NCBI GenBank assembly: GCA_017307505.1
Contig: JAFKEE010000016.1
Span: 434,001-498,000 of the forward strand
Length of the DNA stretch: 64,000 nt
Direction: 5' to 3'
DNA from: Acidobacteriota bacterium
Lineage (GTDB): Bacteria > Acidobacteriota > Terriglobia > Bryobacterales > Bryobacteraceae
In this document: one piece after another, positions 43,943-61,932 of the stretch
Layout of the letters: every line of letters begins with the position of its first letter
How positions within the stretch are numbered: the stretch's first letter is position 1
Translations under genes and position numbers: made by a program
Notes under the pieces: model-generated
The model's input: the letters and a program-made list of their open reading frames with translations, nothing else
What the model was told of the DNA's origin: nothing
The model's database searches: none

Positions 43943-44742
43943 GTTTCAGTAAGTTACAGCCAACGGCAGTTGGCGTAACGCACTAGTTCGAGCATCGATG
44001 ATGCGTTATTTGGGCGACCGGTTGGACCTGTTATCAATAGGTTACGGTCGCCCAAACTGCATTCGCACTAGTTTTTTTGCCCGTTTTGTGACGTGATTGT
44101 GCCAACTGAGATTTGATCTTCTTGGCCACGTATATTAAACCTCATCGTATCAATAATTTGCATTACTGATATTTCAATTTAGTCCGTCACAAACATCCCC
44201 ACCGCCGACGGACAGAAGAGTATGAGCGCCGTTGTTCTTTGCTCAGTATTCTTCCCGACACCACAGGTGCGGGTTACCCAAAGAACTACGTTCATCGCTT
44301 CGTGGGCGCAATCAGCGAGGCACGCCCGAGTTCTTGCCTCCATGCACTATGTTCATGGCCCACCAACTCCAACTGGGCAATGCCAGGAGTTTCCACCAAG
44401 TCCTGATCTCGGAGCAGTTGCCCATAGTGAGATCCAATCCTGCCTACCGTTGACGACGATCACTGCTTTGTCTTGGTGTTAGGCTGCTGCGAACACGCAA
44501 TGTCGAGGAGCTTTCTAGAGCACCTACAGAAAAGGCTCGAACTGATGATCTCTCTGGCGACGGGAGGGATACTGTGCCGAGAGTTGCTGCGGACAGTTGG
44601 GCCACACCACTTGGTTGTCTTCCTGCGATCCTTGATAGGGCATCAACTCTTCGCCGGCCATTCCGGCCTGGCTCTATGATCTTGTCAAAATAGTTCCATT
44701 GTGGAAAGATATTGGCAGGAGTGCGATCCGGAACAAGCCGCT
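43943..44742. other. Gene-poor start of the island
   Basis: About 800 bp between tRNA-Leu and the AbiEi gene. It is visibly more AT-rich than the left flank. It holds a 12-bp inverted repeat at 44009-44056, and a partial repeat of the tRNA anticodon region 100 bp downstream of the original: ACGCACTAG-TTCGAG at 43978-43992 versus ACGCACTAG-CTTGAG at 43878-43892. CGCACTAGTT recurs at 44064-44073. Two short forward frames (44222-44482, 44473-44679) have no family resemblance and may be relics. Confidence 0.5.
44009..44056. repeat. 12-bp inverted repeat near the tRNA-Leu end
   Basis: TTTGGGCGACCG (44009-44020) and CGGTCGCCCAAA (44045-44056) are perfect inverted repeats with a 24-nt spacer. A run of seven T starts at 44072, 15 nt after the second arm, too far for a standard terminator. 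It could be a recombinase-binding or regulatory hairpin. Confidence 0.5.
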
Positions 44743-45354
44743 ATGCCACGCTCGCGTTTCGACGAACTTGCTGCCATTGCGCAGGAGCATGACGGGCTGC
44801 TGACCTCGAAAGAGGCGAGGGACGCCGGAATCACCGATTCGGTACTTGCCCGGCTCACACAACGGGGCCGTCTCGAAAGGGTGGCGCGCGGCGTCTACAG
44901 GCTGCCGTACTTTTCACCCGATCGCCTCTCACAGTACCGAGAAATCGTACTTTGGGCTAAGGGGAATCGAGGCCCTGAGGCGGTCGCCTTGTCGCATTTG
45001 ACGGCCCTCGCTCTCTACGGGATCTCTGATGCGAATCCCGACTCGATCCATCTCACAGTCCCCAAACAGGCGCGGCTGCGCCGTCAGATTCCGCGTGGTG
45101 TGGTGATCCACCGCGAGGACCTCGCTCCAGGCGACATTGCCATTGAGGAAGATCTGCCCGTTACAACAGTTGGAAGGACAGTTGTGGACTTGCTGCAATC
45201 CGGAGGCAGAATCGACTTGATCCAGCAGGCAGTCCGGGATGCCCGGCGAGACGGACTCATCACGGACGCAGAGTCCCGGCGATTGCTGCGGCAAGTGGAA
45301 GCACATCTGAGAGCGCTGCGAGAGAATCGGCAGCGGGAGACACAAAACGCATGA
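44743..45354 (+). CDS. Type IV toxin-antitoxin antitoxin AbiEi
   Basis: About 203 residues from ATG 44743 (MPRSRFDELAAIAQEHDG); a GTG at 44701 could add 14 residues, and no strong ribosome-binding site favours either. The N-terminal winged helix (LLTSKEARDAGITDSVLARLTQRGRLERVARGVYRL) is the AbiEi DNA-binding part, followed by the AbiEi C-terminal domain. By family it represses its own operon. It overlaps the toxin gene by 4 bp. Confidence 0.85.
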   Translation: MPRSRFDELAAIAQEHDGLLTSKEARDAGITDSVLARLTQRGRLERVARGVYRLPYFSPDRLSQYREIVLWAKGNRGPEAVALSHLTALALYGISDANPDSIHLTVPKQARLRRQIPRGVVIHREDLAPGDIAIEEDLPVTTVGRTVVDLLQSGGRIDLIQQAVRDARRDGLITDAESRRLLRQVEAHLRALRENRQRETQNA

Positions 45355-46190
45355 ACACCCGGCCAAGGCCGCCCGAGCGCCTGGAGAAGACATTGGCGCG
45401 TGTGGCTCGGGAAATGGGCATCAACCAGGAGCGGTTGCGACACTGGGTTTCTTTCCTCGCCCTGTGCGGTGTGCTCGAACGGGCCCGCCAGGAAGGGATT
45501 GTGGGCGTCTACTATCTCAAAGGCGGTGTGGCCCTCGAACTACGCTTCGCCCTAAAGGCTCGCGCAACGAGGGATCTGGACTTGGGGATGGCCGGGTCAC
45601 GCGCAGATCGATTGCAGACGCTATCGCGAGCACTGCGGCTCGGATTTGACCAGTTCACGTTCCGGCTCAAGGCCCAGCAGTTGGAAATGGAGAATGCGGA
45701 TGCGGTTCGGGTGCAGGTCGCAATCCAATATCGGACGCGTGCCTGGCAGACCATTGACGTCGACCTCGGATCTGTTACCGCAGGCGAAGTCGACCTGGTA
45801 GCGCCGAATGTGCAGGGTTTGGCAGAGCTGGGGATCCCGGTAATCTCGCCGGTGCGGTGTTTGAACCTTTCCGATCAGCTCGCGCAGAAACTTCACGCCT
45901 GCACAGGCCCCGCATCCGCGGGAAGGGCGAGAGATGTGCTGGACATTCTGGTCATGGATTCCCTCGGCGGGATCAACTACTCCCAAGCTGGCGCTGCAGC
46001 CAGGCGAGTGTTCGAAGTTCGAGCTACCCATCCGTTCCCGCCAGTCTTCGTGATGCCTCCGGAATGGCGTCCTGAAGTAGAAGCACTGGCGCAAGAGCTC
46101 CAGTTTCCGATTACGACCGCTGAGACAATTGAACGGCAGTTCGTGAGGATCATCGACCGACTGGCAACTCCGGCCGGTGGTCATGCCTGA
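45351..46190 (+). CDS. AbiEii-type nucleotidyltransferase toxin
   Basis: 279 residues. The nucleotidyltransferase core shows YYLKGGVALELR and, about 15 residues later, ATRDLDLGM with the two catalytic aspartates of the DxD motif. A VDLGSV and DLVAPNV segment follows. In known AbiE systems this toxin is countered by the AbiEi protein, and the pair halts growth after phage attack. Its end overlaps the primase-helicase gene by 8 bp, suggesting one transcript for all three genes. Confidence 0.85.
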   Translation: MNTRPRPPERLEKTLARVAREMGINQERLRHWVSFLALCGVLERARQEGIVGVYYLKGGVALELRFALKARATRDLDLGMAGSRADRLQTLSRALRLGFDQFTFRLKAQQLEMENADAVRVQVAIQYRTRAWQTIDVDLGSVTAGEVDLVAPNVQGLAELGIPVISPVRCLNLSDQLAQKLHACTGPASAGRARDVLDILVMDSLGGINYSQAGAAARRVFEVRATHPFPPVFVMPPEWRPEVEALAQELQFPITTAETIERQFVRIIDRLATPAGGHA

Positions 46191-48579
46191 CGAGCAAGAG
46201 CGCCTGCGCCGCGAGAATCTGCGGCTGAAGGCTCTTCTGGCAAAACACGGTATCGAGATTCCGAAAGAGGACACAGGCGATCCGCACTTCGGATCCCCTG
46301 AGACGCACGCGCTGGGCTCTGAAGAGAAGATCCAGTTGTTCCGCAGCCTGTTCAGAGGGCGAGACGACGTGTACGCCGTCCGTTGGGAGAGCCCGGATGG
46401 CCGCAAGGGATACAGCCCACGCTACGAGCGTGACTGGAAGGCCTACTACGCGGCGGCGCCCAAAGATCGCACACGGGTAGACAAGGAGACCCGCAAGTAC
46501 CTGCCCCTGACTGATTCTGTCGTCGAAGAGCACCTGAAGGGACGAATCACTGTGGGGCTGTATCCGCTACTTCCAGACGACACGTGTTGGTTCCTGGCGG
46601 CGGACTTCGACAAGGAAGCGTGGCAGGAGGATGCAGCCGCATTCCTTGATGTGTGCCGGGAATGGGCCGTGCCGGCCGCGTTAGAGCGGTCCAGGTCAGG
46701 TAACGGCGGCCATGTCTGGATATTCTTCGAACAACGGATCTCCGCGATGCTGGCGCGGAAGCTCGGGTGCGCGCTGCTGACCCGCGCGATGGAGCGACGC
46801 CATCAGATCGGACTCAGTTCGTACGACCGCTTCTTCCCGAACCAGGACACGATGCCGAAGGGAGGATTCGGCAATCTCATCGCGCTGCCGCTGCAAAAGG
46901 GTCCGCGCCAATTGGGGAACAGCATCTTCATTGATGACCACTTCGAGCCCTATGCCGATCAGTGGGCATTTCTAGGTTCCCTTTCCAGGATCAGTGCACA
47001 GTCTGCGGAGAATCTCGTGCAGGAAGCGCAGCGTCGAGGCGATCTGGTCGGCGTGCGGATCAGTATCACCGAGGATGATGAAGAACCCGATCCTTGGACC
47101 CTTCCTCCATCCCGCAAGCGAAAGGATCCGGTCATTGCCGGCCCTCTACCCACGACAGTGAACATCGTGAGGGCGAATCTTCTCTTCATTGAGAAGATGG
47201 GGCTTCCTCCGGCAATGTTGAATCGGCTGCTGCGCGTCGCGGCATTCCAGAACCCCGAATTCTACAAGGCGCAATCGATGCGTCTTCCCGTCTACGACAA
47301 GCCTCGGGTGATCGCCTGCGGGGAGGATCTACCGAAGTATCTCGCCCTCCCGCGTGGATGCCTGACCGAGTTGACGGACCTCTTGGAATCCCACCGGATC
47401 CGGCCTGTGATTCGCGATGAGCGATTTGGTGGGGTGCCGCTCGCAGTCGAGTTTCAAGGTGCGCTTCGTGAAGCGCAGACCACCGCGGCACAGTCGATGG
47501 TCGCCCACGACGAAGGAATCCTCTGCGCGCCGACCGCATTTGGGAAGACCGCAGTTGCGGCCTGGCTGATCGCGCACCGGAAAGTGAATGCGATAGTGCT
47601 CGTCCACCGGCAGCAATTACTGGATCAATGGCGTGCCCGGCTGGCGATGTTCCTTGGGCTACCGGTCGATGAGATTGGACAGATCGGCGGCGGTAAGACG
47701 ACTCGGACGGGCTGCATCGACGTAGCGGTGATTCAGAGCCTTCACGAGAAAGAAGGGGTCAAGAACTTTGTTGCGGAGTACGGCCATGTAATCGTCGATG
47801 AGTGCCATCATCTGTCGGCTGTCACGTTCGAGCAAGTGATGCGTTCGATCAAGGCGAAGTACGTTGTTGGGCTTACGGCGACGCCCACACGAAAGGACGG
47901 ACATCACCCGATCATCTCCATGCAGTGCGGTCCAATCCGGTTCAGGATGCAGTCCCGGGCGATGACCGATTCGACGCCCTTCGATCACATCGTCGTGAGG
48001 CGCCCAACTGACTTCAGAATGAACGATGAGGCAAGGGAGTTCACGATTCAGGACGTGTACGGCGCACTCGTCGGTGATGATGCCCGGAACGACATGATTG
48101 TGGCGGACGTCATTCGGGCGGTTCAGTCAGGACGCTCTCCCCTGCTGCTGACCGGCAGAACAGAGCATGTGGAAGTACTCCGCGATAGGCTCGCTCGACA
48201 TATGAATAGCATTTTCGTGCTCCAGGGTGGCCTTGGCCGTAAGCAACGCAAAACAGTCATGGACGAATTGGCCGGCTTGCCGGAAACCGAGCCCAGGGTG
48301 ATCCTGGCGACTGGGAGCTACATCGGGGAAGGCTTCGATGACTCGCGCTTGGACACGCTATTCCTCGCGATGCCGAACTCGTGGAAGGGGACTCTCCAGC
48401 AATATGTGGGGCGGCTTCATCGTTTGCACGACAACAAGCAAGTCGTTGAAGTGTACGACTACGTGGACGGGAATGTGCGAATGCTCGCGCGGATGTATGA
48501 GCGCCGGCTGAAAGGATACTCGGACATGGGCTACAGGATCTTCGATTCAACGCTAAACCAGCAAGGACTTCCTATCTGA
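46183..48579 (+). CDS. AEP primase-SF2 helicase fusion (TOTE-type)
   Basis: 798 residues from ATG 46183. A short leucine-rich helix (RLRRENLRLKALLAKHGI) opens the protein. Residues about 100-310 form an archaeo-eukaryotic primase domain: catalytic AADFD with D141 and D143, then the GGHVWIFFE histidine motif and GNLIALPLQ. This is the kind named TOTE conflict-system primase. The second part is a superfamily-2 helicase: CAPTAFGKTAVAA (about 450), VDECHHL, LTATPTRKDG and QQYVGRLHR. It could make primers or scan DNA during conflict. It overlaps the AbiEii gene, and no separate partner protein is visible nearby. Confidence 0.8.
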   Translation: MPDEQERLRRENLRLKALLAKHGIEIPKEDTGDPHFGSPETHALGSEEKIQLFRSLFRGRDDVYAVRWESPDGRKGYSPRYERDWKAYYAAAPKDRTRVDKETRKYLPLTDSVVEEHLKGRITVGLYPLLPDDTCWFLAADFDKEAWQEDAAAFLDVCREWAVPAALERSRSGNGGHVWIFFEQRISAMLARKLGCALLTRAMERRHQIGLSSYDRFFPNQDTMPKGGFGNLIALPLQKGPRQLGNSIFIDDHFEPYADQWAFLGSLSRISAQSAENLVQEAQRRGDLVGVRISITEDDEEPDPWTLPPSRKRKDPVIAGPLPTTVNIVRANLLFIEKMGLPPAMLNRLLRVAAFQNPEFYKAQSMRLPVYDKPRVIACGEDLPKYLALPRGCLTELTDLLESHRIRPVIRDERFGGVPLAVEFQGALREAQTTAAQSMVAHDEGILCAPTAFGKTAVAAWLIAHRKVNAIVLVHRQQLLDQWRARLAMFLGLPVDEIGQIGGGKTTRTGCIDVAVIQSLHEKEGVKNFVAEYGHVIVDECHHLSAVTFEQVMRSIKAKYVVGLTATPTRKDGHHPIISMQCGPIRFRMQSRAMTDSTPFDHIVVRRPTDFRMNDEAREFTIQDVYGALVGDDARNDMIVADVIRAVQSGRSPLLLTGRTEHVEVLRDRLARHMNSIFVLQGGLGRKQRKTVMDELAGLPETEPRVILATGSYIGEGFDDSRLDTLFLAMPNSWKGTLQQYVGRLHRLHDNKQVVEVYDYVDGNVRMLARMYERRLKGYSDMGYRIFDSTLNQQGLPI

Positions 48580-48963: not shown

Positions 48964-49938
48964 GTGATCGTTTTGTCGCAATTCCACTACTCGGGTCTTC
49001 AGCCCGCCGGAGCCATCCTCCGGGGGACCTGCCCAGACCTGATCGTATCGAAACAGAAGCTGAAACAGGCGGAGCGGATTCAGTTGGTCCGGCAGAACCG
49101 GGAGCAGGCCACCCAGACGCTCTGCTTCAACTCGCGGCCGTTCGTCCTGTGCGGTCTTCCGGTTCGGCGTCTCCCGAAAGATCAGTTGCTTTACGAGCGG
49201 CGGAATGGCCGGTTCGTTCTCCAGGTGACTGGGCATCCAGAGTTCGGGGTGCCGTTTGGCCAAGACCGCCTGGTCCCGATCTTCCTGGCAACGCTCGCCG
49301 TCCAGCAGAAGAGCCAAACGATCCGATTCCGCACGGCAGCCGAAATGCTGGAGACCTTCGGGATGCAGACGGGCGGGAAGGAATACCGACGGCTAGTCGG
49401 TGCCTTCGAGCGGGTCTTCGGTGCCACCATCTTCTTCGGAACCGACGCGATGAAGGGCTCCGCCAAAGTGGTCCAGCGCTCCCGCTTCAACTTCATGCGC
49501 GAGGCTCAGATCTGGTACAGCCGGTCTCCGGAGCAGCGGCCGATCTCCAGCGAGTTCGAGAACGTAGTCGTCCTCAGCGACGACTTCTATCAGGAGATTC
49601 TGGCCCATCCTGTCCCGAACGACCTTGAGGCGGTGAAGGTCCTTGCGGCGTCGCCGGCCATTCTCGACCTCTACATGTGGCTCAGTTACCGCAGCTTCAA
49701 GGCGAAAGGGACCGAGTCGATCCCGATATTCGGCGAGTTTGGCCTCGCTAATCAGTTGGGATGCGTTGAATACAGCCGACCGCGGCGGTTCCGCGCCATG
49801 CTCGAACAATGGCTCGAATCGATACGCGCGATCTGGCCGCAGTGTCCCGCCCGGATCGTGTCGAATGGCCAGAGCATCGAGATCCGGAATGCGACAGCCG
49901 TACGTGAACAGCATTCCTCACAAATGGCCGTTCGGTGA
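48964..49938 (+). CDS. Plasmid replication initiator, RepA-type
   Basis: About 324 residues. The stretch GQDRLVPIFLATLAV, then TIRFRTAAEMLETFGMQTGGKEYRRL and AFERVFGATIFFGTDA, matches the plasmid-encoded RepA family (RepA_C). The start GTG 48964 is uncertain: a stop at 48949 limits the upstream reach, and a TTG at 48973 is possible. Finding a plasmid initiator in a chromosomal segment next to a tRNA gene suggests the island derives from a plasmid or integrative conjugative element. Whether it is active is unknown. Confidence 0.75.
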   Translation: MIVLSQFHYSGLQPAGAILRGTCPDLIVSKQKLKQAERIQLVRQNREQATQTLCFNSRPFVLCGLPVRRLPKDQLLYERRNGRFVLQVTGHPEFGVPFGQDRLVPIFLATLAVQQKSQTIRFRTAAEMLETFGMQTGGKEYRRLVGAFERVFGATIFFGTDAMKGSAKVVQRSRFNFMREAQIWYSRSPEQRPISSEFENVVVLSDDFYQEILAHPVPNDLEAVKVLAASPAILDLYMWLSYRSFKAKGTESIPIFGEFGLANQLGCVEYSRPRRFRAMLEQWLESIRAIWPQCPARIVSNGQSIEIRNATAVREQHSSQMAVR

Positions 49939-50206: not shown

Positions 50207-50686
50207 TCAGCCAAGGTGTGACCAAGGTTGCGCGACTGAGCGTGGAGCTTGTCTACGACGACCGATGGAATTGTACTGATACTTCAGGAAAGTGCTTGGG
50301 CCTTGGATCTCGATTCCCAAGGGCGCGGTCGCGGCGGGTGGGAAGTGCCGCTTGTTGTAGGTGACGATCACAGTCGCCCCGGACTTCACCGCGGTGGCCA
50401 GCACATGACAATCCTTGGGATCGTTCGTCATCTGCTCGACCAGCGGTTCGTAGCCGGGTACCCAGGCATCTCCGAGATCTTCGCGAAGTTGACCGACGAG
50501 GTATGCCGTCTTCTGTGCGGACAGGCCAATCCGGTTTTCGAGCGTCCGAACCGTTTCCGCGATGATTTCATTCGACCATTGCGGAATATACGGCCTCGGG
50601 GGCTCAGCGAGTCTGAGCAGCGTGTCACACAGCGGTGCCTGCACCAGGACGCACGCGTCCAGAACCGCAGGAAAGTCGGCGGTCAC
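50207..50686 (-). CDS. PIN-domain toxin (VapC-like)
   Basis: 159 residues. The PIN fold shows the first acidic VLDACVLVQ near residue 8, the conserved WSNEIIAET Glu, and NDPKDCHVLATAVKSGATVIVTYNKRHF with the last acidic residue. By family these are ribonucleases that cut tRNA or mRNA. It overlaps the HTH gene by 4 bp and probably pairs with it. C-terminal residues (from about 135) are low-complexity and may be a read-through extension. Confidence 0.8.
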   Translation of the reverse strand: MTADFPAVLDACVLVQAPLCDTLLRLAEPPRPYIPQWSNEIIAETVRTLENRIGLSAQKTAYLVGQLREDLGDAWVPGYEPLVEQMTNDPKDCHVLATAVKSGATVIVTYNKRHFPPAATAPLGIEIQGPSTFLKYQYNSIGRRRQAPRSVAQPWSHLG

Positions 50687-51147
50687 TCGTCTTCGGCCGC
50701 CTCTGGAACGACGACCTTGTCGTATGTGCCGGCCTCCATCTCTGAACGGGCCATGTTGTTGATGGCCTGATGGCGGGCGGCATCGCGCCGGCGCTTATAG
50801 TCGAGCAGATCGCGCAGGTAGATCCTGCGATGGGAACCGACCATGTGGAATGGCATATCGCCGCTTTCCAGCAGCCGGACTAAAAATGGCCGGGACACGC
50901 CGAGGATGTCCGCGGCCCGCTGCGTCGTGAGTTGTTGATGCTCCGGAACGATCGAGACCGCCTTTCCGGCCTGCAAGTTCTTCAGAATCATCAACAGTAG
51001 ATCGTGGACCGGTTCCGGAATCGTGATTTGATTCCCGTCTGGCCCCAAGAGTTTCGCGTTCCCCTGCTGAACCAGGCGGCGCAGATCCCGGATCTGTGCT
51101 TCCTGGGTCTCCGGAATCGAAATCGGGTCGGAAAGAGTCGAATCCAT
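50683..51147 (-). CDS. HTH (excisionase-type) antitoxin for the PIN toxin
   Basis: 154 residues from ATG 51147, with GAGGA 5 nt upstream; the longer frame to 51252 only adds a shadow. An excisionase/MerR-type helix-turn-helix (LTTQRAADILGVSRPFLVRLLES, then GSHRRIYLRDLLDY) lies at about residues 75-125. Together with the overlapping PIN gene it forms a toxin-antitoxin operon, probably self-repressed through the operator repeats at 51174-51206. Confidence 0.75.
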   Translation of the reverse strand: MDSTLSDPISIPETQEAQIRDLRRLVQQGNAKLLGPDGNQITIPEPVHDLLLMILKNLQAGKAVSIVPEHQQLTTQRAADILGVSRPFLVRLLESGDMPFHMVGSHRRIYLRDLLDYKRRRDAARHQAINNMARSEMEAGTYDKVVVPEAAEDE

Positions 51148-51173
51148 ACTGTCCTCGTCCAATCCTGACACAA

Positions 51174-51206
51174 ACGAATCATTCGAACCATTCGAAACCG
51201 TCGAAC
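51174..51206. promoter_or_regulatory. Operator-like repeats upstream of the HTH/PIN operon
   Basis: Two TTCGAA palindromes 9 bp apart (51182-51187 and 51191-51196) and a near-palindrome CGAATCATTCG (51175-51185) lie 30-60 bp upstream of the ATG at 51147. They fit binding sites for the HTH antitoxin. Confidence 0.5.
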
Positions 51207-51341
51207 ATTTTTGGCGCGCTCCACCATCCCCAAGACGTAGACTGCACCTCAACCTTCGGCCGTAAATTCAACGATTGGAGTTGCGCGAGGCGTGGGAGAG
51301 CGGAGGTTCCAAAAGTACTCTGCCCCAAGGACCACACTCAC

Positions 51342-54300
51342 CTAAGGTTGGCAAAAGATGCGCAGCGTAGCTCCCACAGAAGAAACCGCACCCCACGTGC
51401 TCTGAAGCAAGAACAACATCTGCAGAATATTTCCTTTGGGATGATCACTTTGTCGGGCCTTATTGAATTTGTCGATAGCCAGTCCTTGAGCCATCACAAT
51501 CCACACTTCTCGTGTAGTCGTAGGCAGGCGCAACAGTTCGTCTAGCTGCTCAAAAGACCGCTTCGCAGCAATATTTGGTGGTGCGAGTCGCACCCGACGG
51601 CTTACGGTCAAGACTTCGCCCGTCTTCTTTTTCGTTAACTTCCACGGAGAGTCCCATATCTCCTTATTGAATTTGCGATTCCACTGAGGCGTCATCACTC
51701 CTAAATTTTTAACCGCCTGCCCACACACATCGTGAAACGCGGCCGCCGAAAGGTCGCTATCCTCCTTCGCGGCTTTGGCGTGAATGAATATCACGGCAGG
51801 AGGAGTGCTTCGGAGCGCGATGAAATCAGCCCATTCATTCCCCAGGTCGTCACACAAGAGAATATCCGGCTTAAATGCTTGAGACGCAAACAGTTCTCCC
51901 TGGGGATCATCGATCAAGCCAAACACAGATGCCTTTTCCCAACCGGCACCACCTGGCGAGACAGGCTCTTTCTCTTTCTTGATCGCCTCCAACGCCTTTA
52001 CAGGGTGAAGTATCTTAAGGAGGTCTATCCGGTCCCCCTTTGACCTACCGTGAAGCGGGAATCGCGATCGGTAGAAGCGCCCATGCGCATATATGCCGCC
52101 GTCCTGTGTGATGACGCGAAAGGCCTGGGTAGCATTCAAATGGGCTAACAGCGTACGATGCCCCTGCGGTCCACCTGATTCTCTGAGCACAACCTGAGAC
52201 AGAAACTCGGACGTTAACTCGAACCGATGGTCCTTATACCCGATGGAAACCTCATGTTCCTTCCCGAACGCAGGTATCCTGAACTGGTCCTTCACAACGT
52301 CCCAGCAGCGATCATCTAGAAAGACAGGAGCGCCTCCAAGATTGTCGGCTCTTGGTACCGTCAGCTGGTCAAGCACATCGTCGATGTCTAGGAGGATATG
52401 ACTCGCCTGTGCCTTATCGGGTGCTTTCTGGTATAGAGCATAGCGGGCCAGCGCATCAACTTCCTGCGCGTTGTCCTTCTCCAGAACAGCCGAGATGCCG
52501 TCGACCCATTGAATGAATTTTCCATAATTCACGCGGCCGCCGGTGGGTTCGGAAAGACGAGATCTCGTGAAGCCCAGATAGCGACGCTTGACGGCGTCGC
52601 CATCTCTTAGTACCGCGGTCGCAGTTGAGCAAAATGACGCGTGGTCGCCAAGACCCGGAGCGAGCGCTGCTATCGAGGTTGCCGAGAGCATCCGTCGTCG
52701 AACGCTGTAAAGGGATAGGTCGGAGTTCATAAGCGTAACCGTCGAGACTCGGACATCACCAGCGCTGAGCGTCCGTTCGAGCTTACCTGGATCGACCTTC
52801 GTCCCATGAGTGGTCAGATATTCGGGCGTAATGCCCTGAGAGTCTTGAAAAAAGACATACCGGCCAGCCTTTCGTAAGGCCGAGAAGCCAAGTTGAAGTT
52901 CTAAGAACGTCTGATCAAGGAGCAGAGGCGATGGAGAGCAGCGAATGTATACAAAGATGCGAGTGTCGGAGTCAGGGGCGACCTCATTAAGAAGGAGCAA
53001 GTCTTCGTGGTCAAGGGTTTCACGGACCGACGCGGCACACTGCCCAACGTCATAGCTTGGCTCAGATTCATAGATGAGCGCAGTCTGCGGGTAGGCCAGG
53101 TGTTCATGGACGTCCTTCGCTTCAGGGTCGAAGCGCTCCCGAAACCGCCCTTCCAGGTAGTGATACTCGGCATGCTTGCCCAGTAGCGACGAAAAGATCT
53201 GGTCAGGCCCAAGCTCCACACCGCCCTGCGACAACCACTCTTCGTATCGCACATAAGCGGACCATGTCTTTGAAACACCCGCAGATACATGGCTGAAAAC
53301 CCACGCCGTCTGATTAGGTGACCTGTTCGGATTTCGAAGTACGCGACCGATCTGTTGGACTAGTCCTCGATCATTCCCAAATGTTTGGTATATCGCCACG
53401 AGCCCAAAACGGGGATCGTCAAGGCCCTCGATGAGCTTGTTCTGATGAACCCAAAACAGCGCAGTGTTCTTCTTAGGATCCGGAACCTTGTTGAGGTACG
53501 TTTCCTCTTCGTCCACGCCGAAGTTGTCGTGGACCGCCATAACCGAATATCCCTTCGCCTTGATTGCGGCGGCGACTTCCTGTACACTCGCCTGGGTTGC
53601 GCACCGGACAATCACTCGTTCGGCGGACTTCGGCGCCCGTTTCTTATACGGTCCTTGGTAGAAGGCGATCAGCGCCCGCACGAACGCTTCGGGTCCGGCG
53701 TCGAATTGTTGCTCCTCAAATTTAACGTCTCGAATAAAGCGCTCGCGGACCGCCTCTGGGAAATAGAAGGCGGATGTGAATCCTGGATTCAATCTGAACA
53801 ACCGCCAGTCGTTCCGGTATGGGGTAGCGGTGAAGAGTACGGTCGGGTGTTCAAGATTGCGGACTGCCTCCGCCCACGCCGGCGCCGGCTCGCGGTGACC
53901 CTCGTCGACAAGAACCAAGTCAACCTGCTTCTTCAGCGCCTCGTAAACCGGGGACATGGTTGACTGAAGGAGTGCGAGTCCTTGAGCAGTGCAAACGAGA
54001 ACCTTGGGCGTGGTGTTCTTCAGTTGCTTAGCGAATTCGGACGGCACGGCCGGCGATGCTGGCTTCAATTCCTTCGGAGCAGAGCCTAGCTTCTCCCAAA
54101 AGCGTTCAGAGAGTTCAGATGCGATCTGTCCCTTTAGGTGCGCCCATGGTGCAACGACAAGGATGTTCTGCGTATCAGAGAATCCTTGTGCCAAGGCTGC
54201 CATGATGCCGGTCTTACCAGTTCCGGTCGGCATTCTGACCAGTGCCGCACCGGATTCGCCACTCGCCTGGAATTTTCGAACGACATCGACAGCTTTACGT

Positions 54301-54347
54301 TGATGTGGCCAAATCGCGTCACGCCACGTGATTGTTTTGGTTGCCAT
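51342..54347 (-). CDS. DEAD/DEAH helicase with possible C-terminal nuclease
   Basis: 1001 residues from ATG 54347 (MATKTITWRDAIWPHQRKAV); the frame's first GTG at 54392 is part of an upstream palindrome. SF2 helicase motifs are RMPTGTGKTGIMAAL (Lys46), VLVDEGHREP and QQIGRVLRNPN. The C-terminal half has no helicase motif but holds a restriction-endonuclease-like pattern at about residues 826-858: LLCDDLGNEWADFIAL, then VIFIHAKA with a possible catalytic Lys858. This nuclease reading is tentative. It is not coupled to the next gene upstream (149-bp gap) and has its own palindromic operator. Confidence 0.7.
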   Translation of the reverse strand: MATKTITWRDAIWPHQRKAVDVVRKFQASGESGAALVRMPTGTGKTGIMAALAQGFSDTQNILVVAPWAHLKGQIASELSERFWEKLGSAPKELKPASPAVPSEFAKQLKNTTPKVLVCTAQGLALLQSTMSPVYEALKKQVDLVLVDEGHREPAPAWAEAVRNLEHPTVLFTATPYRNDWRLFRLNPGFTSAFYFPEAVRERFIRDVKFEEQQFDAGPEAFVRALIAFYQGPYKKRAPKSAERVIVRCATQASVQEVAAAIKAKGYSVMAVHDNFGVDEEETYLNKVPDPKKNTALFWVHQNKLIEGLDDPRFGLVAIYQTFGNDRGLVQQIGRVLRNPNRSPNQTAWVFSHVSAGVSKTWSAYVRYEEWLSQGGVELGPDQIFSSLLGKHAEYHYLEGRFRERFDPEAKDVHEHLAYPQTALIYESEPSYDVGQCAASVRETLDHEDLLLLNEVAPDSDTRIFVYIRCSPSPLLLDQTFLELQLGFSALRKAGRYVFFQDSQGITPEYLTTHGTKVDPGKLERTLSAGDVRVSTVTLMNSDLSLYSVRRRMLSATSIAALAPGLGDHASFCSTATAVLRDGDAVKRRYLGFTRSRLSEPTGGRVNYGKFIQWVDGISAVLEKDNAQEVDALARYALYQKAPDKAQASHILLDIDDVLDQLTVPRADNLGGAPVFLDDRCWDVVKDQFRIPAFGKEHEVSIGYKDHRFELTSEFLSQVVLRESGGPQGHRTLLAHLNATQAFRVITQDGGIYAHGRFYRSRFPLHGRSKGDRIDLLKILHPVKALEAIKKEKEPVSPGGAGWEKASVFGLIDDPQGELFASQAFKPDILLCDDLGNEWADFIALRSTPPAVIFIHAKAAKEDSDLSAAAFHDVCGQAVKNLGVMTPQWNRKFNKEIWDSPWKLTKKKTGEVLTVSRRVRLAPPNIAAKRSFEQLDELLRLPTTTREVWIVMAQGLAIDKFNKARQSDHPKGNILQMLFLLQSTWGAVSSVGATLRIFCQP

Positions 54348-54348
54348 G

Positions 54349-54378
54349 TTTATCCGGTGTACTAGCTTAGCTAAGCTA
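54349..54378. promoter_or_regulatory. Shared 17-bp element and 16-bp palindrome upstream of the DEAD helicase gene
   Basis: TTTATCCGGTGTACTAG (54349-54365) is followed by the perfect palindrome TAGCTTAGCTAAGCTA (54363-54378). A 15/17 match of the first part recurs at 61933-61949. Both lie directly upstream of the coding start. They look like transcription-factor or promoter elements. Confidence 0.5.
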
Positions 54379-54496
54379 TGTGCCACCAACACTCCAGTGC
54401 CCCGCGGGTAGTTTGAGTCTCGTTGATTGCGCCCATCCTGACATCTTTAGGAACCGTGGTCAGGCCTCTGGTCTAAATGCAAATACGCCCAATCGG

Positions 54497-54898
54497 CTAC
54501 ATCTGGTCCCTACCTGTGAGGACGTATTCGAATCGGTCGCACTCCTGCGCGAGGGCGATTAGGTATGCTTCCAGCTCGGCACGGTCCAGCGATTCGGTGA
54601 CGTGCTCGATTCGCCCTACTAGCCGGCCCAATTCATCGATGGCGAATTCGACGACGTCCGTTGAACGATTTCGCGCCCAGATCATGCGAGCAACGGCTGC
54701 CAACCCGATATTGCCGACTCGCGCACTTCCAACCACACGAGAAGTCAGCTGATAGCGACCGTTCGCCTCTCGAATATAGATCACCTGAGAACGGCCACTG
54801 GGAAAGGAGATGGTGGCCTGGCCATTGGTATACGAAATCTTCAAGCTGGTACCTGACAGCACCCGCGTATCCCGGAGCAGCTGGCTAATTCTGTCCAT
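54497..54898 (-). CDS. Small protein, YbjN/T3S-chaperone-like
   Basis: 133 residues from ATG 54898, one base after the stop of the SNF2 helicase gene; the open frame to 54979 only overlaps that gene. A beta-strand-rich first half (LKISYTNGQATISFPSG, then YIREANGRYQLTSRV) is followed by a helical second half that ends LGRLVGRIEHVTESLDRAELEA and CDRFEYVLTG. This resembles YbjN/type III chaperone-like folds, but I am not certain. It is probably a partner or regulator of the large helicase. Confidence 0.5.
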   Translation of the reverse strand: MDRISQLLRDTRVLSGTSLKISYTNGQATISFPSGRSQVIYIREANGRYQLTSRVVGSARVGNIGLAAVARMIWARNRSTDVVEFAIDELGRLVGRIEHVTESLDRAELEAYLIALAQECDRFEYVLTGRDQM

Positions 54899-54899
54899 A

Positions 54900-57800
54900 C
54901 TACGCACCAGCCTCCTCTGCGAGCCAGCCTTCTGAAATCTCGTCGCTTCCGAACACACGATCTTCAAGTTCGTCCGCACACATCAAGACGGAAAGCAAGG
55001 CATTCTCGGCTTCGAGCAGGTCAGTCGTCCGAGGATCGAACACCACGTGGGTCTCGGCGGCTAGAGAGAGTGTGTCATCGTTCTCGTCCAAGACTGAACA
55101 GAGCTTGGTGCGGCCGAGCTTCTGATGCGTGGATAACAGCTCACAAATCGTTTCGTCGTCATCGTTCGACACCTTGCCGACAGGGCTCGCACAACGAAGC
55201 AACACGTGGCCCCCGGTGACTGACGTCCGCAGGGACGCTGTGAAGGGCTGGCGACGAGAGAACGTCGGCAGAGCATCCCGTCTCAGGACACTACGGTTTG
55301 CCAAGCGCGCAACGCCGGACCGAGTGAGATCGTTCCGCTTGCCTGTCCACTCGATCTGCCAGCGCGTTGAGAACTCATCCAAAATCCGATTAAACAGCTG
55401 AATCGTATCGGAGACGTTGGGAGTATCAGCTATTGCACCCGAACCGCTTGCGCCTTGAAGCAGCTTCGGATCTATAGCGAAAGAGCTTCGTAGAGGTTGT
55501 CGGTTTGGCGGAATTACCCTGGTAGACGCGACGATCCTTTGGGTAATGTCGATCGACGAGGCACCCAAGTCGCCTTTCTGAATAGCCTCGTGCATCAGGT
55601 CCAAGAACCGATTCATTCGCCGGAACACTTCTTGGACCTGCACAACTTCGACGGTATCGGGCAGAAACGGGAACAATACCTGGAGGTAATCGTCCTCGGT
55701 AATTCCGCTTGCGCCATCGAGTCGGCGATGCGCCTTGGACCCGATCCGATCGACCCTCCCTGTGCGCTGCTCCATAGCGGATGGAGTCCACGTGATGCCG
55801 TAATGAACGACTCTGGAACAGAAAGTATGGAGGTCTTCGCCTTCCTGCACCACGTCGGTCGTGATCAGGACGTACGGGTAGCCTGGCATCCTAAACTGAC
55901 TAACCATTTGCTGGTTGAAAGAACCCCACATTCCTCCAACTGGGGTCTGCCGCTGCATCGCGGCCCGGTAGTAGCCGGGCAGCTCTTGTATCGGTCGTGT
56001 CTGCAACTCGGGGAAGTTCACGTTCAGAATCAACTCAAAGTGCCGCCCGATCTCCTCCAACTCGCGCCACGAATTAAGTCCCGGCTGATCTCTCTGCGAG
56101 GCGAGCAGATCCAAAAAAGCATTCGCCATCGCCTCAGGAGTCTCCTCGCCGCGCTCACCCGCCCCGCGTCGTATCGAGGGTAGTCGGCGAACTGCGAGCA
56201 ACCAGAGGTCGATCATCGGATGTCCGAGAGTGATCGCAGAGGTCAGCAACTCGCGGCGCTGTTCACGAGACCTAAACCAGCTTCGATAGTCCGCACCGCC
56301 TTCATCGGGAAAAAGCGGCGCATGCAACTCTGGACGCAAGGCGAGTTCGGTGAAGAATGTCCTTGAGTCCAAACTGTCGTTTGGTTCAGGGAAGCTTTCT
56401 GGAGTCGCCGGAACAACGTTGGGAAAAGGCTCGTTGAACCTCTCCTCGACTACAACTCCGGCGCGGGCGCCGATCTCGCCGTCGCATGCCATCAGGAGCC
56501 TAAGAGCGGCTTCCTGGTACGCGAAATATACGCGGCGCCGCGGGAACTTCTTTTGCTTGGATCTCCGGAATATCTGGTATGCCAAACTTCGAAGTTCGGT
56601 TCGAGAACAGTTTGTGCACTCCGCCTCCCAACGGCTGAGCACCGCTCCCGAATCGGCTGCCTCGCCCAAAACTAGGGCGACGTAGTTCTCTTCGAAAAAG
56701 GTCGCCAGTGCCGCGCCTTCGCTACCAAGCCGGATCTTGCGGAATGAAGCGCCTGAAATGAGTCCAGCCGGGCCTTCGCCTCGAAAGAACCACGCGAAGA
56801 AATTGTCTAGCCCTCCAGTGTCGTCGTCTGCCGGAGTGTTCTCGTCAAGTCTCGCCTCCGCCTCGCTGCTCTCGGAAGACACCGCGGGCAGCGGACCCGT
56901 GACGCGACGAACGTGAGCGTCACCATACTCAGCAACAGCTCGCTCGAAATCCATCAATACTCCCGGATTGGCGTCCAGCCGGGACCGGATGTAGTCAAAT
57001 AGCCACCGATCGTACTCGTGGGCGATCTTGTCACGCAGTTCCTTGACGCTTGCGATCCTGCGGACGAACACTAGCGACTTCTCTCCACGCAGTACCCAGG
57101 CCCAAAGCTGGCGTCCCACCATGTCCATCTTGGGATGCGGCATCGGCTCTCCGAATCGTTGCTCATATGCGCGGCTGATTTTCGCAATGGAGGGAGTGTC
57201 GATTCCGTCCTTCTCGACTGACGTGCTGGCCTGCTCATCCTGATCGAATGTGGCCTCCTGGTCGGACTCGGTCCGCACCTTCGCAGTTTGCAGGAAGCTC
57301 TCGAACGAAGACAGCATTCCAATTTGAAAACTGCGACTGAAGTGCCCATCAACTTTGCGGCCAGTCTTTTGAAAGACTTCCGATACCTTCTTCTGAATGA
57401 GCGCAACGATGAGGCGCTGAGCAGTGTCGGCAACCTCCATCGGGCTGTCGAACACCGACACGCCACCGCCACGCCATTCGCGGCGATACATGTTTTTGGT
57501 GTGGGCGAGTCCGTTGATCTTTAAATCCGCGACGCGGCGAACGAGATACCGTGACGCAATATTCTTCTTTTCGCTGTCGTCCCGATCTTCTTCGGCCAGC
57601 GCCGGAGCGAGGTCACCAAGACAAAGCACGTCCATCTGATTCCACAACTCGCGGAAGGTGGTCTCAATGGGCGTAGCCGATAATGCGAGCACTCGATCAG
57701 CTTTGACGGTGCACCCGTTTACTATTGGTGCATCCGCGTCCGGGTGGCCGAGCGCCAGGGCCAACAGCCGGTTTCTAGAGGAAACGTTTGCCCCAAACCC

Positions 57801-58448
57801 ATGCTTCAGGTTATGCGCCTCGTCGACCACCAGCAGATCGAACTCCGGCATGACTGAGTTCACCGCGCGGGCGAAAGCATCCTTGAAGGCAGCCTTGTTA
57901 CGGAGGTCGAACAGATTCGGGGAAATCCACGGCAGTTCAGCCAGGACCTTGTCCCTGAGTTCGACCCACTTCGCTGTCTGACCGGCGAGCGGGAGGCTGA
58001 AGCTGCTCATTCGCAGCAGAAAGTCCCGATTGGAATTCAGCGCCGTCTCACGGATGAACTCCAGCAGGTTCCCGCAGGAGAACAGTTCGCGTGCCGGCGT
58101 GTCTTGAAATGTCTTTACGCGGTGGTCGACTTGAAGCCAGTTCTTGGCTGCGAAGTTCCGCGCCTCCTTCTGCCATTTCCTCTGTAGATTCTCCTTTGGG
58201 ACAACGTACAGGACACGAAAGCCAGGGTTGAAATGCCGAAGCAGTCCGATGGTTCCGAGTGCCACGTACGTCTTCCCCATCCCAACTTCATCGGCTATAT
58301 AGGCGAACCGTTCCGCCGCGAGCAAGTTGTGCAGGGCAACAGCGCCCTCAAGCTGCTGGCGGGCGAAAGAGAACGCACTGCCGCCTCGGCCGCGGAAATT
58401 GACCAACTTCTCCGCAGTCGCTACGTCTATCGGCTCGATGCGTCTCAT
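54900..58448 (-). CDS. Large SNF2/DEAD-type helicase
   Basis: 1182 residues. RecA-like motifs are YIADEVGMGKTYVALG (Lys59), LLVVDEAHNLKHGFG (about 205), LALSATPIETTFREL and QRTGRVDRIGS. A large insertion of about 400 residues (roughly 280-690), partly charged and poorly conserved in appearance, separates the two lobes. It resembles the SNF2-like helicases found in phage-defence islands (DrmD of DISARM, or the Dpd helicases). The start overlaps the PLD gene by 4 bp, and the small protein starts one base before its stop region. It probably moves along DNA to expose or sense targets. Confidence 0.8.
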   Translation of the reverse strand: MRRIEPIDVATAEKLVNFRGRGGSAFSFARQQLEGAVALHNLLAAERFAYIADEVGMGKTYVALGTIGLLRHFNPGFRVLYVVPKENLQRKWQKEARNFAAKNWLQVDHRVKTFQDTPARELFSCGNLLEFIRETALNSNRDFLLRMSSFSLPLAGQTAKWVELRDKVLAELPWISPNLFDLRNKAAFKDAFARAVNSVMPEFDLLVVDEAHNLKHGFGANVSSRNRLLALALGHPDADAPIVNGCTVKADRVLALSATPIETTFRELWNQMDVLCLGDLAPALAEEDRDDSEKKNIASRYLVRRVADLKINGLAHTKNMYRREWRGGGVSVFDSPMEVADTAQRLIVALIQKKVSEVFQKTGRKVDGHFSRSFQIGMLSSFESFLQTAKVRTESDQEATFDQDEQASTSVEKDGIDTPSIAKISRAYEQRFGEPMPHPKMDMVGRQLWAWVLRGEKSLVFVRRIASVKELRDKIAHEYDRWLFDYIRSRLDANPGVLMDFERAVAEYGDAHVRRVTGPLPAVSSESSEAEARLDENTPADDDTGGLDNFFAWFFRGEGPAGLISGASFRKIRLGSEGAALATFFEENYVALVLGEAADSGAVLSRWEAECTNCSRTELRSLAYQIFRRSKQKKFPRRRVYFAYQEAALRLLMACDGEIGARAGVVVEERFNEPFPNVVPATPESFPEPNDSLDSRTFFTELALRPELHAPLFPDEGGADYRSWFRSREQRRELLTSAITLGHPMIDLWLLAVRRLPSIRRGAGERGEETPEAMANAFLDLLASQRDQPGLNSWRELEEIGRHFELILNVNFPELQTRPIQELPGYYRAAMQRQTPVGGMWGSFNQQMVSQFRMPGYPYVLITTDVVQEGEDLHTFCSRVVHYGITWTPSAMEQRTGRVDRIGSKAHRRLDGASGITEDDYLQVLFPFLPDTVEVVQVQEVFRRMNRFLDLMHEAIQKGDLGASSIDITQRIVASTRVIPPNRQPLRSSFAIDPKLLQGASGSGAIADTPNVSDTIQLFNRILDEFSTRWQIEWTGKRNDLTRSGVARLANRSVLRRDALPTFSRRQPFTASLRTSVTGGHVLLRCASPVGKVSNDDDETICELLSTHQKLGRTKLCSVLDENDDTLSLAAETHVVFDPRTTDLLEAENALLSVLMCADELEDRVFGSDEISEGWLAEEAGA

Positions 58449-60514
58449 GCGGACTGCTCCTCCGCTTCCGGAACTGGGATTTCGAGGAAGAACATGCGTT
58501 CAAACCAATCCACGAATTCAGCACCGCGGCCGTTGAGGAGCGGCACCAACTCCCCTCTGGAGCTGTCCAGCGATTCGCGCAGCAAGTCCCGAAGGCCTTT
58601 GATCGCCTTGGCCTCCTTCGAGGCGAACTCCGCATTTTGCTCCGGTAGTCCCTTCAACACCTGTAGAGCGCATAGCAGCGTTATGTAGCGGTTGACCGGA
58701 TCGGCGTCCGTCGCAGCCGTGATGCGCTCGATGAGAGTCTTGAGCGAATCGTACTTCGAGCCAAAAAGCAGACACCGGACTTCACGGTCGTTTCCAGCGT
58801 TGAAAGCGTCTTCGACAAGGTTCGCCAAGCACGAAAACGCATGGAAGATGCCCGCGAAACGGTCAAAAATAGAGCGCCGTTCCAATTCGGTGGGCTTCGG
58901 CGCGTTTGAGTCCAATTCCGGGGTGTTCGGTGGTTGCGCAACCAGCGCTTCCAGCTTCCTGCTTAGGAACGCCGACTTCTGCTCGGGAGAGAAGAGCGAC
59001 CAGTACTCTAGAATCTCCTCTGGTGTAAGCGTGACGGACAGGGAAGGCTTGTATTCCATCCGCTCCTCGCGCACGAGCACCCGCTGGGAAGGCAGCGCAC
59101 CGGCGAGCACTTCCAGGAATGAACAGGAGCGCAGTGCTTCTCTGAAGCGCTTTGGATCGTCGGGGATCAATTCGACCCACGAATCGAACTCAATCGGGCT
59201 GATGAACATGGGAGACGTAGATCGGTGACGGATCTGGGCCTGCTTGATGTCTCCGCTGCCGCGGACCCAGTAGTACGACAGAGCGTCCGTTTGCCAGTCG
59301 TACCGGAAAGAGACATTGTGGCAGGCGAGTGTGCTCGGCTCGTCCGATCCGGGCTCTTCGAAAGCACCGATCTGGAAAGAATCCTCCAACTGCGAAAGCC
59401 ACCAGTCAAGGCGAGTGCGCCCTGGTGCGCTCTGGAAGAACACTGCCGATTCGAAGTTCCCGGTGTTTGCAGTGGAGTGGGCAGCCAGGGTCAGATTCAC
59501 TGAGCCCACGAGAAGGTATTCCTGGTTCAGCTTCGGCGAAAAGAATCGGTAAACTTTCGCATGAACAAATCGAGACGGGGAGTCGTCGCGCGACTTCGCG
59601 TAGGACGTGAAGTTACGCGGCAGGAGCCCCCAGGAAACGCGTGGGATGCTGGCGACGGCTTCGTAGTACGGCTTCCGGCACAGCGCCGCCCCGACCTCGG
59701 TTGTCGGCAGGAATATACGCGTCGCTCGCGGATTCAGCTCGTCGACCAACGAGACTACCGCCTTCGCCTCGTCTGTGTTGTCAAAGTAGGGTGAGATGAT
59801 CTCCAGATTGAAGTCCTGAGGGTCGATTTGCAGATCTTCGGTCACGAAGCGTGGCAGCGACTTTTGGCCCACGTACAACCGCGGCCTCAAAACCCCATTG
59901 TGGGAACGCTGGCTTGCGGTCTCGGTTCGATACCGCAGGAATTTCCGGATCTCCTCGATTGCCTGATGCTCGGCGCTCGTCTTGTCGTGCTTGATCACTC
60001 GCGAGAGCAGCCCATTGTCGCCGAGCAAATCATCCCGCAGCAAGGATTTGGAGTTCTCCGGTATCTCTATGATGTGCGCGGCTTCAAGATTCTCCCACCA
60101 TCCCGACCGGGTAAGGTTCGCAGAAGTTGTCAAAACCAGCAAGCTCAACGATTTCTGGGTCTCGTCGTCCTGATCGAGGAGGAGCAGGACGTTCTTAGGA
60201 TGGAATACACCGCCGGGGCGATCGACACCGAATCGCCGATAATCCAGGCTCGCGGACGACGCAGCCGGCGGGATTCCCCGCTGATCGTAGTACACGGCCA
60301 GGTGGTCCACTTGACGAAGCACATCCTCGGCCTGCGCAAGCGCCACGTTTCGATTCCGGCTCCAATCGTGGTCGAACAGCGTCTGTAGAATCTCGGTCTC
60401 GAAGAATGCCGGGTCGAATTCGTAGGTGAGAAATACGGCTACGCGCACGCGTCGAGCCCCGATCCGATCGCGCAGCTGGTCCGAGAGTGGAGACTGCGGA
60501 GGAAGATCGCTCAC
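58445..60514 (-). CDS. Phospholipase D-family (double HKD) protein
   Basis: 689 residues with two HKD half-motifs: VFHPKNVLLLL and TTSANLTRSGWW (about residues 105-137), and FVHAKVYRFFS with VGSVNLTLAA near residue 317. This is the nuclease/phospholipase fold used by many defence nucleases. The C-terminal half (from about 400) carries long helices. It overlaps both neighbours by 4 bp (ATGA junctions), so the three genes are translationally coupled. It probably cuts nucleic acid in the same complex as the SNF2-like helicase. Confidence 0.8.
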   Translation of the reverse strand: MSDLPPQSPLSDQLRDRIGARRVRVAVFLTYEFDPAFFETEILQTLFDHDWSRNRNVALAQAEDVLRQVDHLAVYYDQRGIPPAASSASLDYRRFGVDRPGGVFHPKNVLLLLDQDDETQKSLSLLVLTTSANLTRSGWWENLEAAHIIEIPENSKSLLRDDLLGDNGLLSRVIKHDKTSAEHQAIEEIRKFLRYRTETASQRSHNGVLRPRLYVGQKSLPRFVTEDLQIDPQDFNLEIISPYFDNTDEAKAVVSLVDELNPRATRIFLPTTEVGAALCRKPYYEAVASIPRVSWGLLPRNFTSYAKSRDDSPSRFVHAKVYRFFSPKLNQEYLLVGSVNLTLAAHSTANTGNFESAVFFQSAPGRTRLDWWLSQLEDSFQIGAFEEPGSDEPSTLACHNVSFRYDWQTDALSYYWVRGSGDIKQAQIRHRSTSPMFISPIEFDSWVELIPDDPKRFREALRSCSFLEVLAGALPSQRVLVREERMEYKPSLSVTLTPEEILEYWSLFSPEQKSAFLSRKLEALVAQPPNTPELDSNAPKPTELERRSIFDRFAGIFHAFSCLANLVEDAFNAGNDREVRCLLFGSKYDSLKTLIERITAATDADPVNRYITLLCALQVLKGLPEQNAEFASKEAKAIKGLRDLLRESLDSSRGELVPLLNGRGAEFVDWFERMFFLEIPVPEAEEQSA

Positions 60515-61860
60515 TCAGCCACCTCCTTCATGAAGACTGCCGCCCCCACCTCTTTCAGCGCGTTCAGGAAGTAGGTGTTGTGCCATCCTTCCGGCAGTTC
60601 GGACCGATCCATCGGCTCACCAGTTTGGTCGGAATACCTGACCTCGATGCGACTATTTTTGACAGCGGCCCATGCTCCACCGGATCGCCGCTGCATCACC
60701 CGCTCATTGTGCTGCAGGATGAGTTCAATCGCGTTGTCGAACCTTCCCTCGATGAGACTTGCTGCGATGATGCGCAAGGTCGATGGATCTCCCGCCGCCT
60801 GTGTGATTTCTGTTGCCAGTTCCGAAATCCGTGTCGGCTCCAGGTGACCAAAGGCACCGCGCCACCGTCTGCCCAGTTCCGCCGCGACCGCGGTTACGGT
60901 TTGTCCCCGCTGGCCCAGGACGAAATCGAAGATCTGCTCTGAAGGTACGAGCACGCGTTCCAATACTCGGATATTGTCGAGACCCGCGGCCAAGACTCGG
61001 TCCAGGGTGTCGTGTGATTCTTGGCACTTCGAAACGATGGCTGACAGCTCGTTCATGTCGAAGGCTCGCCACTTCTTCCGGCCGTTAATCTGTTCGATGT
61101 GGCGCCAGAGACGCTCCTGCCGGCCATCCGGATGACAGTGGGAGCCGTTCACCAACTGCCGGCCGTAGAAATCGCGTTCCGCCTCCTCAAACTTGGGACC
61201 GTATAGGTTCGAAAGTGTTCGCCCCAGGTCCTTGTCTTTTCCGCGGGGCTCAAACTGTAGCTCACGCGCGGAAAGCAAGCGCCCGATGCCTTCGACTCCA
61301 CCCCACTTTCGCTGATCCAGGGCACCGAGAAGATTCTCTTCAACAAAATGAGCAGCGCGCGTCGTCAGGCCTAGCCGGGACGGTTGCAGCAATCCGCTAC
61401 TGGTAGCCGCAACGCTGTAAAGACCCCAAAGGCCATAGGTTTTCTGATTCGAGAGAATCTGGCCGTCGCGGTCGGACGCAATGCGCACACGGCCGTTTCC
61501 GTTCTTGTAGCGCGCTTCGACACGGCGAATACCTCGGATCGTGTTTACCGCGTCGCCAGTCTCGTCAGCCCACGCGAATCGACTATAAGCCGAGATCTGC
61601 TCGAACCGCAGAAACGGATCGATATACTCGGCTGCCGGCACGGCACCGCTTTCAACCAGGCTGCTGGCGAAATGATGCCCTAGAAGCAGGGTAGTGAACC
61701 CGCGAACGGAGGTCGTCACCGTCGTCAGGTTCCCTACAAGCTTGCGGCCGAAATAGCTCCAGATCGGTTGGAACCCGAGCGGGTCCCGGGAATCCTTCAG
61801 CTTGATCTCAGGATCGAGTTCCGTGAAGAAAAAACAGCCCTCCATGGGACTAGCGGTCAC
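60511..61860 (-). CDS. Protein of unknown function in the PLD/helicase operon
   Basis: 449 residues. I chose GTG 61860: GAGGAGGT lies 7 nt before it. An upstream ATG at 61896 would add 12 residues without a ribosome-binding site. The N-terminal half has GFQPIWSYFGRKLVGNLTTVT and a segment AARAHF-like TRAAHFVEENLLGALD. The C-terminal half is helical (VLERVLVPSEQIFDFVLGQRG). I do not recognise a family. It is the first gene of the coupled unit with PLD and helicase, so it may be a recognition or regulatory subunit. Confidence 0.7.
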   Translation of the reverse strand: MTASPMEGCFFFTELDPEIKLKDSRDPLGFQPIWSYFGRKLVGNLTTVTTSVRGFTTLLLGHHFASSLVESGAVPAAEYIDPFLRFEQISAYSRFAWADETGDAVNTIRGIRRVEARYKNGNGRVRIASDRDGQILSNQKTYGLWGLYSVAATSSGLLQPSRLGLTTRAAHFVEENLLGALDQRKWGGVEGIGRLLSARELQFEPRGKDKDLGRTLSNLYGPKFEEAERDFYGRQLVNGSHCHPDGRQERLWRHIEQINGRKKWRAFDMNELSAIVSKCQESHDTLDRVLAAGLDNIRVLERVLVPSEQIFDFVLGQRGQTVTAVAAELGRRWRGAFGHLEPTRISELATEITQAAGDPSTLRIIAASLIEGRFDNAIELILQHNERVMQRRSGGAWAAVKNSRIEVRYSDQTGEPMDRSELPEGWHNTYFLNALKEVGAAVFMKEVAE

Positions 61861-61932
61861 AGTCGCTACCTCCTCGGTTGAAAGGCCTGCCTCCAATCTC
61901 GTCGTCTGGTGCCCTCATAAGAACACACGCAT

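Follow-up and report, generated by a model that had tools for sequence, protein, structure and literature searches.

Introduction

Azaca (ZacABC) is counted among the systems with a phospholipase D (PLD)-like domain in part of one report (PMC10952713), and a section of another (PMC12278908) identifies its helicase as ZacC and presents Hachiman (HamAB) as a system in which a sensor helicase restrains an effector nuclease. The same gene order, i.e. unknown gene - PLD - helicase, is found in PDC-M27, a phage defence candidate of PADLOC whose name we did not find in the literature searched. Here we analyse a 64,000-nt stretch of DNA from an Acidobacteriota bacterium (contig JAFKEE010000016.1, positions 434,001 to 498,000; "the window"), in which an earlier note, made from the sequence, had proposed that five adjacent genes on the reverse strand, here termed A to E, form an undescribed defence operon. 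Our results indicate that A, B, C and D are probably an immune system of four components built around a helicase and a nuclease, and that this system is a variant of the PDC-M27/Azaca type (A-PLD-SNF2), with E as a neighbour. As A, B and C match the models of a PADLOC candidate, the core is already listed and the system is not wholly undescribed.

Conservation of the A-B-C core

The positions, sizes, overlaps and spacing of the genes as originally described are borne out by the window sequence (Table 1): the frames of all five genes are open, A/B and B/C overlap by 4 bp each, D starts one base past the stop of C, and D and E are separated by 149 bp. An alternative TTG start of A at 61896 would yield a protein of 461 aa.

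Protein families were assigned with the profile models of PADLOC-DB 2.0.0, the results being model matches and not PADLOC system calls. A matches PDC-M27A (E-value 3e-18, or 3.4e-18 for the 461-aa reading), as do all 68 A proteins scanned at an E-value of 1e-3, i.e. the window protein and those of 67 of the 75 A-bearing loci described below. B matches ZacB (2.5e-13), Pfam PLDc_2 and, more weakly than ZacB, PDC-M27B (2.5e-10, spanning 15-381 of 635). C matches PDC-M27C (4.6e-74), and its C-terminal motor lobe additionally matches ZacC, DrmD and others.

Related loci were sampled via C in a scan of genome contigs, the best 80 of 129 relatives being kept, and the other components were located by profile searches of the reading frames in the kept loci. 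As C was the starting point, the survey measures the frequency of A, B and D beside C and does not tell how frequently C accompanies each of them. B is present in all 80 loci and A in 75; in the five loci without A the contig starts inside B. Some A matches are partial, located at contig ends (L047, L084), split (L104) or short (L109). Wherever all three genes are present (75/75) they are arranged in the order A-B-C on one strand, and in 73 of these loci the frame-to-frame junctions do not exceed 150 bp, with an A-B separation of 1.3-1.4 kb in L078 and L080. The gene order, for which a genome search had been suggested, hence recurs in unrelated genomes, and the B-C pair in 80/80 kept loci together with A-B-C in 75 argues that the arrangement is not due to chance.

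The catalytic signatures of B and C are invariant. In B (83 sequences aligned) the first motif (H105/K107/S131/N133/E144) is identical in 79/79 and the second (H318/K320/G337/S338/N340/N353/E355) in 80/80 sequences reaching the respective columns. B thus carries two PLD motifs as initially noted, but their pattern is HxK..N..E rather than HKD and, in lacking the D, is reminiscent of the BfiI type of PLD nuclease. In C, Walker A (GxGKT) and Walker B (DE) are present in 83/83 sequences and motif VI (EQxxGRxDR) in the 79/79 that reach its columns. As these motifs are identical throughout, both enzymes would, judged by sequence, be expected to be active. The AlphaFold model of A is mostly helical with a predicted local distance difference test (pLDDT) score of 92.2; a Foldseek search with it gave no match at an E-value of 0.001 or below (best 1.1 in the PDB and 0.69 in BFVD), and for A, B and C alike, searching by sequence for relatives with a solved structure gave no convincing candidate.

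D, a small protein coupled to C

The earlier assignment of A and of the YbjN-like protein D to the module agrees with the survey. D directly follows C in 45 of the 80 loci and forms a C-terminal extension of C, in one fused frame, in 18; in 17 it is undetected by the hidden Markov model (HMM). This HMM was iterated on the surveyed loci themselves; a model built from three seed D sequences alone still detects D in 61/80 loci at E-values below 1e-5, including 16 fusions (L064, which shares its contig with a seed, is among the 61). Where the two proteins share a frame, the match to D is located at the end of C. Separate D genes start between -32 and +15 bp of the C stop in 43 of 44 cases, 25 of them at -8 or -11, the start codon taken being the one nearest to the C stop.

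A quick maximum-likelihood tree was built from 79 C sequences; on it the fused state requires 8 changes, at least 6 of which are forced by starred branches, compared with a mean of 16.5 for shuffled labels; the separate state requires 7. Repeated fusion or fission of C and D points to a partnership of the two proteins, and D thus seems to be a genuine fourth component that has apparently not been recorded before. It adds a recurrently helicase-fused component to the candidate defence system PDC-M27.

An AlphaFold2 model of D based on 44 aligned sequences has a pLDDT of 95.2. A Foldseek search of the PDB with this model gave 17 matches at E-values of 0.001 or below, of which 13 are type III secretion chaperone entries (ExsC, the best with 1.1e-5, as well as SycH, SicP, SpcU and others), the remainder being DR_1245 (twice), PA14_16140 (template modelling score 0.72) and one Synechococcus protein. 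AmyR and YbjN come next in the list with 2e-3 to 3e-3. At the sequence level, Pfam YbjN matches 17 of 44 D members at an E-value of 0.01 (best 6.4e-7), the window protein lying below the YbjN cut-off, and TY-Chap1 matches one; the PADLOC models match none of the 44 at the same threshold. As set out in part of one report (PMC9503650), type III secretion chaperones and YbjN belong to one TY-chaperone superfamily, members of which occur in ADP-ribose conflict systems. The likeness of D to these proteins lies in its predicted fold, whereas its apparent partner is an SNF2 ATPase instead of a secreted effector or an ADP-ribosylation system. D may act on C by stabilising, activating or restraining it.

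Comparison with PDC-M27 and Azaca

The families and the order of A, B and C are common to the window locus and PDC-M27, although A and B of the window match the PDC-M27 models over parts of their length only. In Rhodoferax antarcticus the canonical PDC-M27 locus is plasmid-borne and has the same order with a shorter C (869 aa). Azaca, too, has this order, and PLD protein B links the PDC-M27 candidate to Azaca: a profile alignment of B and ZacB (hhalign) covers 311 columns including both HxK motifs (probability 98.5, E-value 2e-15). C matches ZacC with an E-value of 3.8e-21, the best stretch being residues 851-909 around motif VI, and in the profile comparison the likeness is confined to 59 columns around this motif. 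Comparing the tail of ZacC with the D profile gave no match (probability 0.3). ZacA is annotated as DUF6361, and the ZacA model matches none of 68 A proteins at 1e-3. A profile comparison of A and ZacA aligns 48 N-terminal columns with a probability of only 13.6 and a score of 32.8, the controls reaching at most 23.6 (100 column shuffles), 18.3 (reversed profile) and, for the unrelated D, a probability of 0.5. This suggests, but does not prove, that A and ZacA are distantly homologous.

The window locus might accordingly be a plain member of PDC-M27 or Azaca in which D is an incidental or regulatory small protein. Such an assignment fits the matches of A, B and C to the PDC-M27 models, the match of B to ZacB and the same order without D by HMM in the canonical Rhodoferax locus and the Azaca loci, yet it accounts neither for the lack of ZacA matches among the A proteins and the narrow likeness of C and ZacC, nor for a D that is conserved, coupled to C and repeatedly fused to it, and we consider it unlikely. 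The four-component immune system that we favour rests on the constant gene order, the tight coupling, the intact motor motifs of C, the intact motif pair of B and the fusion of D to C.

Several observations weigh against a four-component system. Three of the 17 loci in which the HMM detects no D (L078, L095, L097) are cut by the contig end inside C, and among the 14 remaining loci a D-like tail was recovered for only one group of five. When grouped, the C tails of L090, L092, L098, L102 and L103 match the D profile with a probability of 96.6, an E-value of 5.7e-10 and a score of 60.6, the best of 50 column shuffles scoring 18.7; as L092 fits poorly into the alignment of these tails, the D-like tail may hold for the other four loci only. 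Moreover, the D models match neither the canonical Rhodoferax PDC-M27 locus nor any of eight Azaca loci, and the similarity of A and ZacA is weak. The C tree was calculated quickly and has long branches, so its details are unsure. Finally, the genes next to the other loci are mixed and include metabolic ones, making the defence context outside the window modest.

DISARM and Dpd likewise combine a PLD enzyme with an SNF2 motor, and C matches DrmD and DpdE at the motif level, but these matches cover short stretches and score far under the NCBIfam cut-offs. Neither DrmB/DUF1998 nor a methyltransferase is among the matches listed for the five genes A-E, and from Dpd only the DpdE and DpdF helicase models, i.e. 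no 7-deazapurine insertion genes, are among the matches listed for the ten plus eight proteins scanned. As their defining genes are not among the operon matches, membership in both systems was rejected, which upholds the original view of a separate helicase-nuclease module lacking DUF1998, methyltransferase and 7-deazapurine genes. The absence of methyltransferases holds inside the operon; a type III methyltransferase and a C5-methyltransferase are, however, encoded upstream of A, beyond the window.

Possible mode of action

Azaca, with its helicase ZacC and PLD-like domain, and the helicase-nuclease pair of Hachiman serve as precedents for the present system; the helicase and nuclease of Hachiman differ from those encoded here. 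A-D may be active against phages, the target probably being foreign DNA. In the earlier note, sensing was ascribed to A and to the insertion between the lobes of C, either of which may serve this purpose. We propose that C would translocate on or remodel invading duplex DNA and may carry A as a recognition or loading factor, and that this activity would deliver or unlock the nuclease B, which would then cut the DNA. D could be a stoichiometric clamp on C or, alternatively, a brake that binds peptides and keeps C and B inactive as long as there is no infection, similar to the way in which chaperone-fold proteins hold their partners in type III secretion.

In a bolder version, which we regard as distinctly unlikely, D would be an immune subunit of a new kind. 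With its secretion-chaperone fold it would grip a flexible part of either A or the SNF2 motor, and the nuclease would stay silent until D is displaced by a phage product, A being a new fold that docks the nuclease. Infection would then be sensed as partner switching, just as secretion is sensed by partner switching between ExsE and ExsC.

Distribution and defence context

The sequences in the C tree, many of them from metagenome bins, bear the labels of 15 phyla, and the phyla are intermingled, which is consistent with horizontal transfer. Within the phylum of the source organism, the PDC-M27A model matches 3 of 297 genomes, the source genome included. A scan of viral contigs with C found no relative, and a tblastn search of plasmids with A gave no match at 1e-3. 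In two genomes of the same genus, a search at the DNA level, which does not exclude distant protein relatives, gave no match to A-E.

These data also bear on whether A-D might be a housekeeping or DNA-repair complex instead of a defence system. Motors of the SNF2/RapA type and PLD enzymes have roles in other DNA transactions as well, and 6 of the 69 nearest neighbours in the other loci are UvrD helicases; nevertheless, a repair function is very unlikely in view of the rarity and patchiness of the set, its lack of a DNA match in the two same-genus genomes, the mixture of phyla on the C tree and the location of the window set in a defence-type gene cluster. The remaining nearest neighbours comprise two Mrr_cat, two ResIII and one specificity domain, others being metabolic; they were defined as stop-to-stop frames of at least 200 aa, some of which may not be genes. 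At 1e-10, 237 of the PADLOC models have a match among the 69 neighbours and 2 models among 27 control open reading frames (window 973-43256), but the models listed for the neighbours are nearly all GajB variants, as expected of any UvrD helicase, and we claim no enrichment.

UvrD matches occur in 7 of the 80 A-B-C loci, and two Azaca loci on rhizobial plasmids (L112:2916-8983 and L113:2842-8897) are preceded by genes for a PD-(D/E)XK nuclease and a UvrD helicase. These genes are perhaps a recurrent accessory module.

Gene E

The C-terminal half of E matches PDC-S71, a single-gene candidate (2.8e-41, model 116-589 of 589). Residues E838, D841 and K858 in this half are kept in 6/6 sequences, compatible with a PD-(D/E)xK-like nuclease. 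A tblastn search with E at 1e-8 found no relative in the 80 A-B-C loci (in 63 of them the sequence extends 4 kb or more downstream), and a profile search gave one weak helicase match (L081, 4e-6). Among 151 related genomes the protein occurs in one, the source genome. On plasmids, 101 records match E, 18 of them across at least 80% of its length. Five of these plasmid regions were examined (Bradyrhizobium, Sinorhizobium, Mycobacterium avium, Sulfitobacter and E. coli); in these 21-kb regions neither tblastn with A-D nor the D models gave a match. The E relative adjoins AbiV in the Sinorhizobium plasmid and lies near Avs4 in the E. coli plasmid.

From the absence of E in the survey, the plasmid loci without A-D and the single-gene PDC-S71 match it follows that E is an independent candidate defence gene and a neighbour of the A-D system, to which it would otherwise be wrongly assigned. 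The five-gene operon of the earlier note, with E as a second motor-nuclease, is thereby largely refuted and highly improbable, even though E lies on the same strand as A-D at a short distance and a simple scan, with totals not above chance, found no promoter- or terminator-like site between D and E on that strand.

Genomic neighbourhood of the window locus

Table 1. Genes A-E and flanking features; positions refer to the window.
Feature	Position	Strand	Length	Description
Gene A	60511-61860	-	449 aa	GTG start, GAGGAGG upstream; mostly helical protein, PDC-M27A family
Gene B	58445-60514	-	689 aa	PLD-superfamily protein, two HxK..N..E motifs, predicted nuclease
Gene C	54900-58448	-	1182 aa	SNF2-type superfamily 2 (SF2) ATPase, long insertion between the two lobes
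Gene D	54497-54898	-	133 aa	Protein with type III secretion chaperone/YbjN (TY-chaperone) fold (predicted), separate gene here
Gene E	51342-54347	-	1001 aa	DEAD/ResIII helicase, C-terminal PDC-S71 domain
AbiEi/AbiEii-type pair	44701-46190			Beside tRNA-Leu
TOTE-type primase-helicase	46177-48579			Archaeo-eukaryotic primase-helicase fusion; Pfam AEP-TOTE 2.6e-96
RepA-like protein	48964-49938			Plasmid replication protein, on 636-kb contig
HTH and PIN genes	50207-51252			Excisionase-type helix-turn-helix (HTH) protein, then PIN-domain protein
Type III restriction subunit	62128-65112	-		Upstream of A, stop 267 bp before A start
Type III methyltransferase, C5-methyltransferase, DrmD-like SNF2 gene	to about 71631	-		Beyond the window (L018:2128-11631 including the restriction subunit)

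To its left the locus is flanked by the TOTE primase-helicase gene, the RepA-like gene and the HTH and PIN genes, and to its right by a type III restriction-modification pair, the C5-methyltransferase and the DrmD-like SNF2 gene. The HTH and PIN genes are probably a toxin-antitoxin pair. The AbiE stretch is found at the same place in one same-genus genome and is largely missing in another, and the TOTE gene is common to both of these genomes, synteny with them ending at about 48585, just past this gene. From there through A, DNA matches to the two genomes are limited to the RepA-like gene and, in one of them, a short stretch near the HTH gene. Use of the tRNA-Leu gene (43856) for attachment was rejected, as L018 contains no copy of the 3' end of this gene and synteny continues past it to about 48585. 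A right border was not found, the sequence beyond 71.7 kb being located elsewhere in the two same-genus genomes. Stretches similar to the RepA-like gene occur at three other places in the source genome. The A-B-C locus of Maribrevibacterium (L091) likewise has a type III pair together with a DrmD-like match.

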